A stretch of 64,000 nt of DNA from Nocardioides marmoriginsengisoli (GTDB taxonomy: Bacteria; Actinomycetota; Actinomycetes; Propionibacteriales; Nocardioidaceae): positions 758,963 through 822,962 of the forward strand of contig NZ_RJSE01000007.1 in assembly GCF_003725695.1 (NCBI RefSeq), read 5' to 3'. The position numbers were made by a program, and so were the translations under genes. Below are positions 30,492-48,936 of the stretch, piece after piece. Numbering within the stretch: position 1 is the stretch's first letter; each line of letters begins with the position of its first letter. The notes under the pieces were generated by a model. It worked only from the letters and a program-made list of their open reading frames with translations, searched no databases and had not been told where the DNA came from.

Positions 30492-30787
30492 GGCCGGCCG
30501 ACGTTCAGGGCAACCGCCAGCACCTGGTCGGGTTCGATCCCGGCCTCCTTGCGGACGGCGCTCTTCAACGGGATCAGGTAGCGGCCGTCCTTCGGGAACA
30601 GCGCGGTGCTGAACTCGGTGTCGCCGATCCGCGCGATCACGGGGACCTGGCCCCAGTACTCCAGTCCCTTGGCGGCGAACTTGATGTCCGCGCTCTCCTC
30701 CTCCGGCACGCGCAGGAAGTAGTACGGCGCCGGACCGCGCCACTCGACGACCGGGCCCTCGAACTCGAAATCCATCGTCGCCATCAT
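30488..30787 (-). CDS. DUF1905 domain protein
   Basis: A 99-residue protein that is almost entirely a DUF1905 domain (FEFEGPVVEWRGPAPYYFLRV at the start, GDTEFSTALFPKDGRYLIPLK in the middle). The family has no established function. The ATG at 30787 overlaps the stop of the TetR gene (ATGA), so the two are coupled; in-frame ATGs at 30784 and 30775 are alternatives. Confidence 0.78.
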   Translation of the reverse strand: MMATMDFEFEGPVVEWRGPAPYYFLRVPEEESADIKFAAKGLEYWGQVPVIARIGDTEFSTALFPKDGRYLIPLKSAVRKEAGIEPDQVLAVALNVGRP

Positions 30788-31344
30788 GCCCGACCGAAGG
30801 CCGGCGCGACGTACGCCGTCACCAGCGCCCGCTCGGTCGCGGCGTCCTGGGCCGGCCAGGCCAGCAGCATCAGCACGACCCGCACCACCCACTGGGCGCC
30901 CAGGGCGTCGGTGGCCGGGAGGCCGGTGAGCGCGGACGCGACCGAGGTCAGCTCCGCGGAGCCGCGCAGGTAGTCGTCGGCGAAGGAGTTGCGGCGGCTT
31001 CCGAACCAGGCGGCCAGCGCCCGGTCGGCACGGACCGCCGCGACCGAGACCAGGATCGCCTCGACGACCCGCTCCGGTCCGGAGATCCCGCGCAGCTTCT
31101 CCTCGACCCGGTCGCCGACCCGGGACGCGGCGTCGGCCAGCACCATCGCCAGCAGCGCGCTCTTCCCGCCGACGTGGCGGTAGAGCGTTGCCCGGGAGCA
31201 GCCGGCCCGCGCGGCGACCGCCTCGGCGGTGAACTTGTCGAGTCCGCGCTCGGTCAGCAGGTCCCGGGCGGCGCCGCGGATCCGGGCGATCGCGAGCTCG
31301 TGGCGCTCGCCGCCGGTGAGCCAATCGGTGCTCGGCGTGCTCAT
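30784..31344 (-). CDS. TetR family transcriptional regulator
   Basis: A 186-residue regulator. The N-terminal HTH is clear ('LDKFTAEAVAARAGCSRATLYRHVGGKSALLAMVL'). ATG 31344 follows GGAGGTGGG. A near-perfect 25-bp operator lies directly upstream, fitting autoregulation. It is divergent from the P450 gene, the likely target, and its transcript also carries the DUF1905 gene. Confidence 0.9.
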   Translation of the reverse strand: MSTPSTDWLTGGERHELAIARIRGAARDLLTERGLDKFTAEAVAARAGCSRATLYRHVGGKSALLAMVLADAASRVGDRVEEKLRGISGPERVVEAILVSVAAVRADRALAAWFGSRRNSFADDYLRGSAELTSVASALTGLPATDALGAQWVVRVVLMLLAWPAQDAATERALVTAYVAPAFGRA

Positions 31345-35575: not shown

Positions 35576-36049
35576 TCAGGGACGCAGGCCGACGCCGGGG
35601 CCGTGGAACTGCTCCAGGTCGGCGCGGACGGCGTCGTCCATCTCCCACGACGTCGCCGTCTCCGAGTTCCAGAAGACGAACGACGACTCGGCGACGAGGG
35701 CGGGCGGGTGCTCGGCGGAGGTCCGCATCTGGGTCGCGACGGTGAACGAGGACCGGCCGAGACGGCTCACCCAGATCCGGACCAGGAACGGCGTGTAAGG
35801 GATGAATCGCATCTCCGCGTGGTAGTCGACGCGCTGCGACCCCATCAGCTCGACGATGCCGGCCGGCCGGTTCCGGAGCAGGCCCGGCCGGCTCTCCGGC
35901 GAGCGGTCGTCGAAGACCGGGGCGAACATGAAGAACTGGATCCGGGCCTCGTCGATCACCCGGACCGCCTCGACGTTGTCGACGTGCCCGCCGACGTTGA
36001 TGTCGCGGAAGCGGGTCTGGATCTCGGTGTCGAACCGGCGGCCGGTCAT
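35576..36049 (-). CDS. Hotdog-fold thioesterase (4HBT-like)
   Basis: A 157-residue hotdog protein with the typical 'TRFRDINVGGHVDNVEAVRVIDEARIQFF' opening of 4-hydroxybenzoyl-CoA thioesterase-like enzymes. It should hydrolyse an acyl-CoA. It follows the ketosteroid isomerase-like gene by one base and so lies under the same KstR-type box, which suggests steroid or lipid acyl-CoA substrates (inference). Confidence 0.8.
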   Translation of the reverse strand: MTGRRFDTEIQTRFRDINVGGHVDNVEAVRVIDEARIQFFMFAPVFDDRSPESRPGLLRNRPAGIVELMGSQRVDYHAEMRFIPYTPFLVRIWVSRLGRSSFTVATQMRTSAEHPPALVAESSFVFWNSETATSWEMDDAVRADLEQFHGPGVGLRP

Positions 36050-36050
36050 C

Positions 36051-36425
36051 TCAGCCGAAGGTCATGTCGCCGTCGTTCCACCAGGCGCGCATCGAGCGGA
36101 TCAGCCCGTCCTCGTCGAAGGCCATCATCTCCATCGGGTCGAGGACGGCGACGCCGGCGCCGGTGTCGGTCTCGATGTGGAAGTGGAAGGCCGCCTCGCC
36201 GCCGGAGGCGCGGATGGCGAGCAGCTCGGTGGTGACCTTCATCGGCTCGAGGGTCGCGTAGAAGCCCTGGATCGCCTCGCGGCCGACCAGCGGCTCCGAT
36301 CCGACCGGGTCCTCCAGGACGCCGTCGGGGGCGTAGAGCGCCACGATCTCGGCGGCCGTGCCGGTGGCGACCAGCTCGAGGTAGCGACGGACGTTGGCTT
36401 CGGCCTGCTCGTTCGTGATGGGCAT
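36051..36425 (-). CDS. Ketosteroid isomerase-like (SnoaL-fold) protein
   Basis: A 124-residue protein of the NTF2/SnoaL fold. The 'LYAPDGVLEDPVGSEPLVGREAIQGFY' segment is the hallmark of delta-5-3-ketosteroid isomerases; the acid in LEDPVG matches the general base Asp, and D in MMAFDEDGLI is near the second catalytic acid. Steroid isomerisation is plausible but not certain. ATG 36425 overlaps a palindrome that matches the KstR operator. Confidence 0.78.
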   Translation of the reverse strand: MPITNEQAEANVRRYLELVATGTAAEIVALYAPDGVLEDPVGSEPLVGREAIQGFYATLEPMKVTTELLAIRASGGEAAFHFHIETDTGAGVAVLDPMEMMAFDEDGLIRSMRAWWNDGDMTFG

Positions 36426-36438
36426 AGAACATGTTCTA
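36425..36438. promoter_or_regulatory. KstR-type operator
   Basis: TAGAACATGTTCTA is a perfect 14-bp palindrome and an exact match to the pattern TnnAACnnGTTnnA described for KstR, the TetR repressor of cholesterol catabolism in mycobacteria and relatives. It covers the start codon and presumed -10 region of the isomerase/thioesterase pair. Confidence 0.7.
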
Positions 36439-36463: not shown

Positions 36464-36482
36464 TTAGGTAAGGCTACCCTTT
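36464..36482 (+). promoter_or_regulatory. DtxR/IdeR iron box with leaderless promoter of the SIP gene
   Basis: TTAGGTAAGGCTACCCTTT matches 15 of 19 bases of the DtxR/IdeR consensus. Its right half includes TACCCT (36475-36480), a -10 element 7 nt before ATG 36488. Iron-loaded repressor would block this promoter directly. Confidence 0.75.
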
Positions 36483-36487
36483 GTTAC

Positions 36488-37417
36488 ATGGTCACGACTT
36501 CGTCCTTGCCGTTGCTGTTCGTCGAGCTGGAGACGCTCAGCGTCGAGCGGCTCTCGCCGTCCTTCGTCCGGGTCGTCCTCGGCAGTCCCGAGCTCGCCGA
36601 CTACGGCATCGAGGGTCCGCGCTACGACCAGCGGATCAAGCTGATCTTCCCCGGCGCGCGGCAGACCGCTCCGGCCGCGCTCGACGAGGAGTCGATGCAG
36701 GCCTGGTGGGGCCTTCCGGAGGAGGAGCGCGGGCACATGCGCACCTACACGATCCGCGACGTCCTCGGCAGCGGCCGGGAAACCCGTTTCGTGGTCGACA
36801 TCGTCGTGCACGAGGACGGCCTCGCCGGCCCCGGCGGCAGCTGGGCGCTCCGGGCGGTCCCGGGTGACCGGGTGCAGGTGATGGCGCCCCGCCGCGGCGT
36901 ACCGTTCGGCGGGATTGAGTTCGCGCCGCCGCAGGTCAACCACCTGCTACTGGTCGGCGACGAGACCGCGCTGCCGGCGATCGCGAGCATCCTGGCCGAC
37001 CTCGACGCTACCAGTGTCGGCCGGGTCTTCCTCGAGGTCCCGGACGTCGGCGACATCCTCGACCTGGCGGCGCCTCCCGGGATGGAGCTCTGCTGGCTGC
37101 CGCGCGGGCACACCGACGCCGGCGCCCGGCTGGTCCCGGCGATCCGGGCGCACTTCGGTCTCGGCGCCGGGGAGTGGGCCACCGACGCCGAGATCGACCC
37201 GGACCTCTGGGAGACGCCGACCTGGTCCTCCTCGGGGGCCGATCTCGACCAGGACGCGCGCTCGGACGGGCCGCTCGCCGACCTCTACGCGTGGATCGCC
37301 GGCGAGTCCCGGATGGTCACGACGCTGCGCCGGGCGCTGGTCAAGGAGCTCGGCGTCGAGCGCTCCCAGGTCGCCTTCATGGGCTACTGGCGCAAGGGCG
37401 TCTCGATGAAGTCCTGA
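36488..37417 (+). CDS. Siderophore-interacting protein (FAD-dependent ferric reductase)
   Basis: A 309-residue SIP/ViuB-like flavoprotein that releases iron from ferric siderophores in the cytoplasm. It has an FAD-binding RTYT motif (85-88), the GPGGSWAL strand, a 'LLLVGDETALPAIASIL' NAD(P)H-binding segment, and the 'AWIAGESRMVTTLRRALVKELGV.R..VAFMGYWRKG' end that defines the family. The iron box directly upstream agrees with the role. The transcript is probably leaderless. Confidence 0.92.
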   Translation: MVTTSSLPLLFVELETLSVERLSPSFVRVVLGSPELADYGIEGPRYDQRIKLIFPGARQTAPAALDEESMQAWWGLPEEERGHMRTYTIRDVLGSGRETRFVVDIVVHEDGLAGPGGSWALRAVPGDRVQVMAPRRGVPFGGIEFAPPQVNHLLLVGDETALPAIASILADLDATSVGRVFLEVPDVGDILDLAAPPGMELCWLPRGHTDAGARLVPAIRAHFGLGAGEWATDAEIDPDLWETPTWSSSGADLDQDARSDGPLADLYAWIAGESRMVTTLRRALVKELGVERSQVAFMGYWRKGVSMKS

Positions 37418-39330: not shown

Positions 39331-40359
39331 TCAACCGAGCCGGACGACGGTCCGGCCGACCGCGCGGCGCTGGAGGTGATCCTCCAGCGCCGCGCCGGCT
39401 TCGTCGAGGGAGACCACCCGGCCGACGTGCGGGCGCAGTTCGGTCGTGACCAGGTCGGTCAGGGCCGCGTGCACCCGGTCGCCCTCCTCGCGGAGGAACG
39501 GGTTGAAGCCGAACCGGCGCATCCCGGGGTCGACGGCGTCGACCCAGGCGCAGACGACGCCGACGACCGAGAAGTTGCCGATGCTGATCATCCGCAGCGG
39601 GCGTCCGCTCATCCCGTTCTCCGGGTCGTCGGTGAAGCCGACCGGCAGGTAGCGGCCGCCGCGCGCCACGCAGGTCCAGGACTTGCCGACGAACTCGCCG
39701 CCGGCGAGGTCCAGGATCACGTCGGCACCCGCGTCGCCGGTCGCGGAGAGGACGGCCTCGACCCAGTCCTCGGCGGTGTGGTCGATGACCAGGTCCGCTC
39801 CCAGGGAGCGGCACAGCGCGGCCTTCTCCGGTGAGCTCACGGTGGCCAGCACCCGGGCGCCGGCGGCGACACCGAGCTTGATCGCGGCGGTGCCGAGACC
39901 GCTGGCCCCGGAGTGCACCAGCAGCGTCTCCCCGGCCCCCAGCCCGGCTCGCACGTGCAGGGCCAGGTAGGTGGTGTGGAACGGCAGCAGGAAGGCGGCC
40001 GCCTCGGTGTCGGTCAGCTCGGCCGGCGCGGCGAACACGCCCGCGGCCGGGGCGACGACGTACTCGGCGAGACCGCCGAGCGCGTCCTTGGCGACCGCCA
40101 GCACGCGCTGGCCGGTCCAGCTCTCGGCTCCTGCGCCGGCCGCTTCGACGACTCCGCAGAGATCCATCCCGAGGGTGAACGGCGGATCCTGGGTGACTGA
40201 GACCAGTCCGCCCTGGCAGCGCAGGATGTCGTTGTAGTTGAGCGCCGCGGCGGAGGTCCTGATCAGCACCTCGCCGGGTCCCGGCGCCGGCCGTTCGATG
40301 TCGTTGACGGCCAGGACGTCGATCGGATCGCCGTGCCGGGTGACCTGCAGCGCGCGCAT
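39331..40359 (-). CDS. MDR-family quinone oxidoreductase/alcohol dehydrogenase
   Basis: A 342-residue zinc-free type medium-chain reductase. Features: 'ALNYNDILRCQG' substrate site, GMDLCGVVEAAG, and the NADPH-binding HSGASGLGTAAIKLG. It lacks the structural zinc cysteines. ATG 40359 follows GAGGAG. It is divergent from a TetR gene, whose operator probably lies in the 54-bp gap, so regulation by that TetR is expected. Confidence 0.87.
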   Translation of the reverse strand: MRALQVTRHGDPIDVLAVNDIERPAPGPGEVLIRTSAAALNYNDILRCQGGLVSVTQDPPFTLGMDLCGVVEAAGAGAESWTGQRVLAVAKDALGGLAEYVVAPAAGVFAAPAELTDTEAAAFLLPFHTTYLALHVRAGLGAGETLLVHSGASGLGTAAIKLGVAAGARVLATVSSPEKAALCRSLGADLVIDHTAEDWVEAVLSATGDAGADVILDLAGGEFVGKSWTCVARGGRYLPVGFTDDPENGMSGRPLRMISIGNFSVVGVVCAWVDAVDPGMRRFGFNPFLREEGDRVHAALTDLVTTELRPHVGRVVSLDEAGAALEDHLQRRAVGRTVVRLG

Positions 40360-40384
40360 TGTGCTCCTCGGGGGCTGGACAAGA

Positions 40385-40405
40385 ATGTGAGACTCAGTAT
40401 CATTC
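40385..40405. promoter_or_regulatory. Candidate TetR operator and -10 in the MDR/TetR gap
   Basis: The gap contains an imperfect inverted repeat with outer arms AATG (40384-40387) and CATT (40401-40404) and inner GAGAC and GTATC halves. TATCAT (40398-40403) is a possible -10 element of the TetR gene, 10 nt before its ATG. Symmetry is only partial. Confidence 0.35.
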
Positions 40406-40413
40406 GAGTCACC

Positions 40414-41079
40414 ATGGTGGTCAAGGGAACGACGTCTCGACAGGCTCGGCGTCCGGGTGCGGAGCCCGGCCTGCGGGAGCGGAAGCGTTCGGCCACCCAG
40501 CAGCGGATCGCCGAGGCCGCCGCCCGGCTGGCCACCGACCAGGGCATCGCCGAGACGACGGTCGACGAGATCGCGACCGCTGCGGGGATCGGCCGCGCCA
40601 CTTTCTTCCGGTACTTCGACTCCAAGGAGCTCGCGATCGCGACCGGGCTCTCCGACGCCGGGGCCTACGTGCTCGCCGGGGTGCTGGCCGACGTACCGGC
40701 TCGGCTGGGGCCGCTGGACGCGGTCCGCGCCGCCTACGCCCGGCTCGGGGAGGACTTCGAGGCGTACCGGCCGATGTTCCTGGAGCAGGCGCAGCTGAGC
40801 CGGTCGTCGCCGGCGATGCTCGCCTGGACGCTCTACCTGTACGTCGACTGGGAGGTCGCGATCGCCGAGGCGGTCGCCTCCCGGTTCACCGACCTGCGCC
40901 CCGGTGACCCGCGCCCGCGGATGCTCGGCGCCCACACCATGACCGCCGCCCGGCTGGCCTGCGACGAGTGGGTCGCCGACGCCGGACGCGGTGATCTCCC
41001 CGCGCTCATCCAGCAGTACCTCGCCGCGTCCCCGACGAGCACCCCGACCAGCCCGACCAGCCCGCAAGGAGAGTCATGA
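40414..41079 (+). CDS. TetR family transcriptional regulator
   Basis: A 221-residue regulator with HTH 'IAETTVDEIATAAGIGRATFFRYFDSKELAI' at about 45-75, and a Thr/Ser/Pro-rich C-terminal tail. Its stop overlaps the sulfotransferase start (ATGA at 41076-41079), so the two are co-expressed. It probably also controls the divergent MDR gene. Confidence 0.9.
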   Translation: MVVKGTTSRQARRPGAEPGLRERKRSATQQRIAEAAARLATDQGIAETTVDEIATAAGIGRATFFRYFDSKELAIATGLSDAGAYVLAGVLADVPARLGPLDAVRAAYARLGEDFEAYRPMFLEQAQLSRSSPAMLAWTLYLYVDWEVAIAEAVASRFTDLRPGDPRPRMLGAHTMTAARLACDEWVADAGRGDLPALIQQYLAASPTSTPTSPTSPQGES

Positions 41080-48062: not shown

Positions 48063-48081
48063 TTAGGTAAGGCACCCCTAA
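48063..48081 (+). promoter_or_regulatory. DtxR/IdeR iron box upstream of the small Cys/Lys protein and ferritin
   Basis: TTAGGTAAGGCACCCCTAA matches 15 of 19 bases of the consensus and shares its first 11 bases with the box at 36464. It lies at about -40 to -22 relative to a transcript starting at 48103, over the expected -35 region. Confidence 0.7.
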
Positions 48082-48411: not shown

Positions 48412-48936
48412 GTGACCGCACCTCGATTCGCTGCCCAGCTCAACGAGCAGATCGGCAACGAGTTCGCCGCCCACCAGCAGTACATCGCGTGCGCGATCCA
48501 CTACGACGCCCTAACGATGCCGCAGATGGCCGCCTTCTTCTACGGTCAGGCGCTCGAGGAGCGCGACCACGCGATGATGATGGTGCAGTTCCTGCTCGAC
48601 ACCGACTGCGAGGTGCAGATCCCGGGCGTCGAGGCGCCGCTGACCGCGTTCGAGTCGATCGTCGCGCCGGTGGAGCTGGCGCTGGCCCAGGAGAAGCGGG
48701 TCTCCGAGCAGATCTTCGCGCTCACCCGCACGGCCCGCGAGGAGAACGACTTCGCCGCCGAGCAGTTCATGCAGTGGTTCATCAAGGAGCAGGTCGAAGA
48801 GGTCTCGACCATGAACGACCTGCTCACCGTGGTGACCCGTGCCAAGGACGACGTCAACGCGATCGAGGAGTACATGCGGCGCGAGCAGGGCGGCGAGGGC
48901 GCCGACGCCACCGCGCCCCCGATCGCCGGCGTCTGA
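48412..48936 (+). CDS. ftn: Ferritin
   Basis: A 174-residue non-heme ferritin that stores iron. Ferroxidase residues align with E. coli FtnA by number: E17, E50, H53, E94, Q127 and E130. There is a short disordered tail of about 15 residues. GTG 48412 follows GGGAGGACC. It is probably expressed with the small Cys/Lys-rich gene from the iron-boxed promoter and possibly from its own. Confidence 0.93.
   Translation: MTAPRFAAQLNEQIGNEFAAHQQYIACAIHYDALTMPQMAAFFYGQALEERDHAMMMVQFLLDTDCEVQIPGVEAPLTAFESIVAPVELALAQEKRVSEQIFALTRTAREENDFAAEQFMQWFIKEQVEEVSTMNDLLTVVTRAKDDVNAIEEYMRREQGGEGADATAPPIAGV

Follow-up and report, generated by a model that had tools for sequence, protein, structure and literature searches.

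The window, the whole 64 kb stretch of Nocardioides marmoriginsengisoli DNA analysed here, contains a predicted ketosteroid isomerase gene that is followed by a thioesterase-like gene and lies divergent from a siderophore-interacting reductase-like gene. The features of the locus are listed in Table 1. The two divergent start codons are 62 bp apart. A KstR-type operator, TAGAACATGTTCTA, lies at the isomerase end of this interval, and an iron box, TTAGGTAAGGCTACCCTTT, lies directly before the reductase gene and 25 bp from the operator. On the other side of the isomerase gene, a single base separates its stop codon from the thioesterase ATG.

Table 1. Coordinates of the features at the isomerase locus, given as positions in the window.
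Feature	Position	Strand	Evidence or remark
4HBT_2 thioesterase-like gene, second in operon	35576..36049	minus	PF13279 2.9e-11
Predicted Delta5-3-ketosteroid isomerase, 124 aa, Tyr15/Asp39/Glu99	36051..36425	minus	PF12680 (SnoaL_2) 1.7e-16; structure relatives
KstR-type operator	36425..36438	.	exact palindrome; overlaps isomerase start codon by one base
IdeR/DtxR-type iron box	36464..36482	plus	36464-36480 fits relaxed iron-box pattern, no mismatch
Siderophore-interacting FAD reductase-like gene	36488..37417	plus	PF08021 9.6e-28, PF04954 7.6e-34; divergent from isomerase

The operator is a perfect 14-bp palindrome. Read on the minus strand it gives TAGAACATGTTCT-ATG, so that its final base is the A of the isomerase ATG, and the KstR palindrome TnnAACnnGTTnnA is matched exactly at the start of the gene. 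It is the sole TnnAACnnGTTnnA site in the window, where dinucleotide shuffles yield a mean of 0.05 matches, and likewise the sole match to TNNAACNNGTTNNA. A preliminary description of the locus had reported a complete and fully palindromic motif match that overlaps the start of a ketosteroid isomerase-like gene, with a thioesterase next in line, and the positions and domains bear this out. A sigma-70 promoter scan recognised none.

Among solved structures, the isomerase is closest to a mycobacterial protein (6p3l, 1.4e-27) and to the steroid delta-isomerases of Comamonas testosteroni (1ocv, 5e-17) and Pseudomonas putida (1w6y, 6e-17), with which it shares the fold, the length, the catalytic tyrosine (Tyr15, in the oxyanion hole) and the general-base aspartate (Asp39). 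The third catalytic residue, equivalent to position 103 of the P. putida enzyme, is Glu99 here, whereas 1ocv and 1w6y have Asp and 6p3l has Ser. Natural isomerases with Asp, Ser or Glu at position 103 were all active in survey assays (PMC8754429). The gene product combines the fold and homology of assayed enzymes with Tyr, Asp and one of the three residues accepted at position 103, and no other protein of the genome is a strong isomerase homologue. It is unlikely, in our view, that the operator is functional while the product is a SnoaL-like protein with a different substrate, for example an acyl-CoA ester on which it would act together with the thioesterase. SnoaL-like folds do serve many reactions, the protein falls far short of the cut-off of an NCBIfam isomerase-related model, its third catalytic residue is Glu and not Asp, and other SnoaL_4 genes without an assigned role also lie at strict KstR sites, but the nearest solved relatives are steroid isomerases, their Tyr and Asp are kept, and a Glu at position 103 is compatible with activity.

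We counted KstR motifs across the 4.46 Mb genome (16 contigs), with the motif pattern read backwards as the control. The motif TnnAACnnGTTnnA occurs 57 times versus 8 for the reversed control, and the stricter motif TNGAACNNGTTCNA occurs 28 times versus 4; the isomerase operator is one of these 28 strict sites. A KstR orthologue is encoded at G000:C14:19794-20363. Its score on the KstR model, 272 bits, falls slightly short of the curated cut-off of 280, and structures of M. tuberculosis KstR match it at about 1e-58. In the N-terminal part, which holds the DNA-binding helices, 48 of 63 residues are identical to M. tuberculosis KstR. The preliminary description had proposed searching the genome for kstR and for further copies of the motif, and had named the lack of a KstR homologue as fatal to its reading; the orthologue is present and the copies are in clear excess over the control.

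The motif is enriched genome-wide and is placed at steroid genes, in the manner of a regulon. The kstR gene has two short-chain dehydrogenases and an mce operon as neighbours, and nearby a strict KstR site separates a reductase-like gene from the mce genes. This locus has the same gene kinds in the same order as cluster B of Nocardioides (Pimelobacter) simplex. A cluster on contig C12 encodes HsaA, HsaC and a 3-ketosteroid dehydrogenase (kstD) with several KstR sites around them, and a strict site lies upstream of hsaA. The cholesterol oxidase gene (1e-217 to structure 1coy) has two strict sites. Gene calling was confined to the surroundings of sites and followed a simple ORF/GC3 rule; 24 of the 27 strict sites examined lie at gene starts versus 14% of random positions in the same DNA, a figure that is approximate because of this gene calling and because the loci were chosen for holding sites. 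Many strict sites lie 2-14 bases before a called start codon, so the arrangement of the isomerase operator is typical in this genome. The kstR gene itself has no exact operator and carries a one-mismatch form, TGCAACGTGTTTCT(A), upstream (L016 around 1337-1352, G000:C14); its autoregulation may therefore be weaker than in mycobacteria. The KstR2 motif shows no excess in the genome (3 exact sites versus 6 controls), and two of the three sites fall in the C12 steroid cluster.

Two clusters were read, on contigs C12 and C14, and the majority of the 28 strict sites fall elsewhere in the genome. The preliminary description had placed the operator far from any evident steroid cluster, which is correct, the rest of the steroid pathway being elsewhere in the same genome, but the distance is not unusual, since most strict sites and both N. 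simplex isomerase genes are found outside clusters. Two SnoaL_4-domain genes (L075:10103-10540 and L080:9538-10020) have a strict site 10 or 80 bases before the start and are candidate new steroid-regulon genes. Another strict site is immediately before a gene for a DUF1295 membrane protein (L068:8272, G000:C4:488272), a domain that resembles steroid 5-alpha-reductases. A further strict site lies 5 bases before a sulfate adenylyltransferase gene, cysD-like as read by eye (L076:10005, G000:C5:43005), which would be an odd target for a cholesterol repressor.

Motif number follows KstR presence across the family. Of 61 family genomes, 25 encode KstR, and their median number of strict sites is 15; in the other 36 the median is 1.5. 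For the reversed control it is 2 in either group. The associated p value of 5e-8 is indicative only, the species being related. These data bear on which protein binds the palindrome. The genome holds 43 TetR-like matches to the KstR model, one of them at 90.7 bits, and two TetR genes lie in the window, so another TetR-family regulator of similar specificity and different ligand could be envisaged, such as the KstR paralogue at G000:C2:918687 or the local genes at 40333-41079 and 30784-31344. We regard this as very unlikely. Only one protein comes near the KstR cut-off, its DNA-binding part is almost the same as in M. tuberculosis KstR, and the same motif both marks steroid genes genome-wide and tracks KstR through the family. 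The two local TetR genes, which are MftR-like or without assignment, are not favoured as the operator's regulator.

The operator is also conserved at the isomerase gene itself. Orthologues in two other species of the genus, G012 (77% identity) and G019 (76%), have exactly TAGAACATGTTCTATG at the start codon. The DNA farther upstream is different in G019 and patchily similar in G012, and the neighbouring genes differ as well. An operator that stays identical amid diverged flanks clearly points to selection acting on it. Exact sites also lie immediately upstream of more distant isomerase-like loci in G050 and G035, and a one-mismatch site accompanies another such locus in G028. Most other KstR-bearing species of the genus have no close isomerase, and the gene is therefore an optional part of the regulon. 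Mycobacteroides relatives of the isomerase (46-50% identity, contig search) have no exact site within 5 kb, so the link to KstR is not universal for the isomerase family. That the palindrome arose by chance, or is a relic without regulatory effect, is extremely improbable in this light. The reversed control does imply about 8 loose chance matches in a genome of this size, and 5 of the 31 sites predicted in M. smegmatis were considered perhaps irrelevant. Here, however, the palindrome is perfect, the gene whose start it marks is relevant to the pathway, and two other species with diverged flanks have every letter of it at the corresponding place. On grounds of rarity, position and conservation we reject a chance origin.

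The thioesterase is less consistently connected. The isomerase-thioesterase pair is kept closely coupled in G012, and in G035 the thioesterase orthologue is the convergent neighbour of an isomerase. No operator lies within about 1.5 kb of the orthologues in G018, G019, G021 and G028, and linkage of thioesterase orthologues to an isomerase or a KstR operator is thus inconsistent. In G019 the gene lies between an ABC-transporter gene and a quinone-oxidoreductase-like gene, both types of which are also neighbours in this window. A role of the thioesterase as a core steroid gene is not supported, its orthologues in four relatives being elsewhere without the operator. Its place in the operon is real; any steroid function is putative. 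The small steroid/lipid module of the preliminary description accordingly stands for the isomerase under its KstR-type operator and only in part for the thioesterase, which belongs to the operon here and in G012.

The divergent reductase gene probably lies outside the steroid operon. We take TTAGGTAAGGCTACCCTTT to be of IdeR/DtxR type from the consensus of that family; matches with up to 2 mismatches are expected by chance 0.01 times. A second iron-box-like sequence, TTAGGTAAGGCACCCCT (2 mismatches), is present at 48063-48079, upstream of an ORF at 48412-48936 that appears ferritin-like by eye. The G012 isomerase is near genes that, read by eye, resemble an iron-siderophore transport system. 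The simplest reading of the intergenic region is that two independent operators serve two divergent genes. Since 25 bp separate the steroid operator from the iron box, joint control of the isomerase operon and the reductase gene by KstR and an IdeR/DtxR regulator can be considered, and we hold it to be unlikely. If true, joint control would couple steroid catabolism, in which iron enzymes abound, to the iron supply through a shared divergent promoter.

The KstR motif and regulon are well established in M. smegmatis and M. tuberculosis (PMC1995591). The system described here is similar in its palindrome (TAGAAC-NN-GTTCTA), in its orthologous repressor and in having some operators that overlap coding regions. 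It differs in that most sites are scattered over the genome and kstR has a one-mismatch upstream site only, and the word 'isomerase' is absent from the mycobacterial regulon paper (PMC1995591). A closer precedent is N. simplex VKM Ac-2033D, in which two isomerases, KR76_23530 and KR76_24125, are listed in the KstR regulon; both are cholesterol-induced and one is phytosterol-induced (PMC7807495, PMC7593942). Only about one third of N. simplex operons with predicted KstR sites are phytosterol-induced. The two species are alike, compared by gene kind and not by orthology, in having ketosteroid isomerase genes outside steroid clusters with predicted KstR sites. Here, unlike in N. simplex, the isomerase gene is single, its start codon is overlapped by the operator and a thioesterase gene comes next. 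Our literature searches returned no paper linking KstR with SnoaL, and the titles and abstracts on Rv0760c make no mention of KstR.

The presence of KstR and of a whole KstR-type regulon, conservation in orthologues, the catalytic residues and the N. simplex precedent together give strong support to a KstR-type operator controlling a ketosteroid isomerase. We put the probability at roughly 0.88 that a genuine KstR operator controls this stand-alone Delta5-3-ketosteroid isomerase gene, with the thioesterase co-transcribed behind it, a judgement made at the level of sequence.

In mycobacteria, a KstR dimer binds the palindrome, which at the kstR promoter overlaps the -10 region; a small number of operators there reach into coding regions or lie within them, an arrangement interpreted by the authors as a block to the polymerase (PMC1995591). 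By analogy, when steroid is absent a dimer of the KstR encoded on contig C14 would occupy the palindrome at the isomerase gene. Because the palindrome ends on the ATG, the most likely arrangement is a leaderless or very short-leader mRNA whose promoter or start site would be covered by the repressor, or a roadblock to the polymerase. Sterol uptake and oxidation would then generate an inducer that releases KstR; in the mycobacterial literature this is 3-oxo-cholestenoic acid or its CoA ester. The derepressed isomerase would be made together with the cholesterol oxidase and the ring-degrading enzymes, and would convert 3-oxo-5-ene steroids, from cholesterol oxidase or hydroxysteroid dehydrogenases, to 3-oxo-4-ene products. 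Cholesterol oxidases of this family isomerise their own product. A separate isomerase may therefore serve chiefly other 5-ene steroids or leaked intermediates and be partly redundant.

Through these results, a gene for which SnoaL-like would otherwise be the only label gains a likely function, regulator and inducer. That the isomerase gene is a new member of the KstR regulon is well supported, and in other respects the findings confirm what is known from N. simplex. They depict the cholesterol regulon of the genus as one that is spread over many contigs and held together by one operator.
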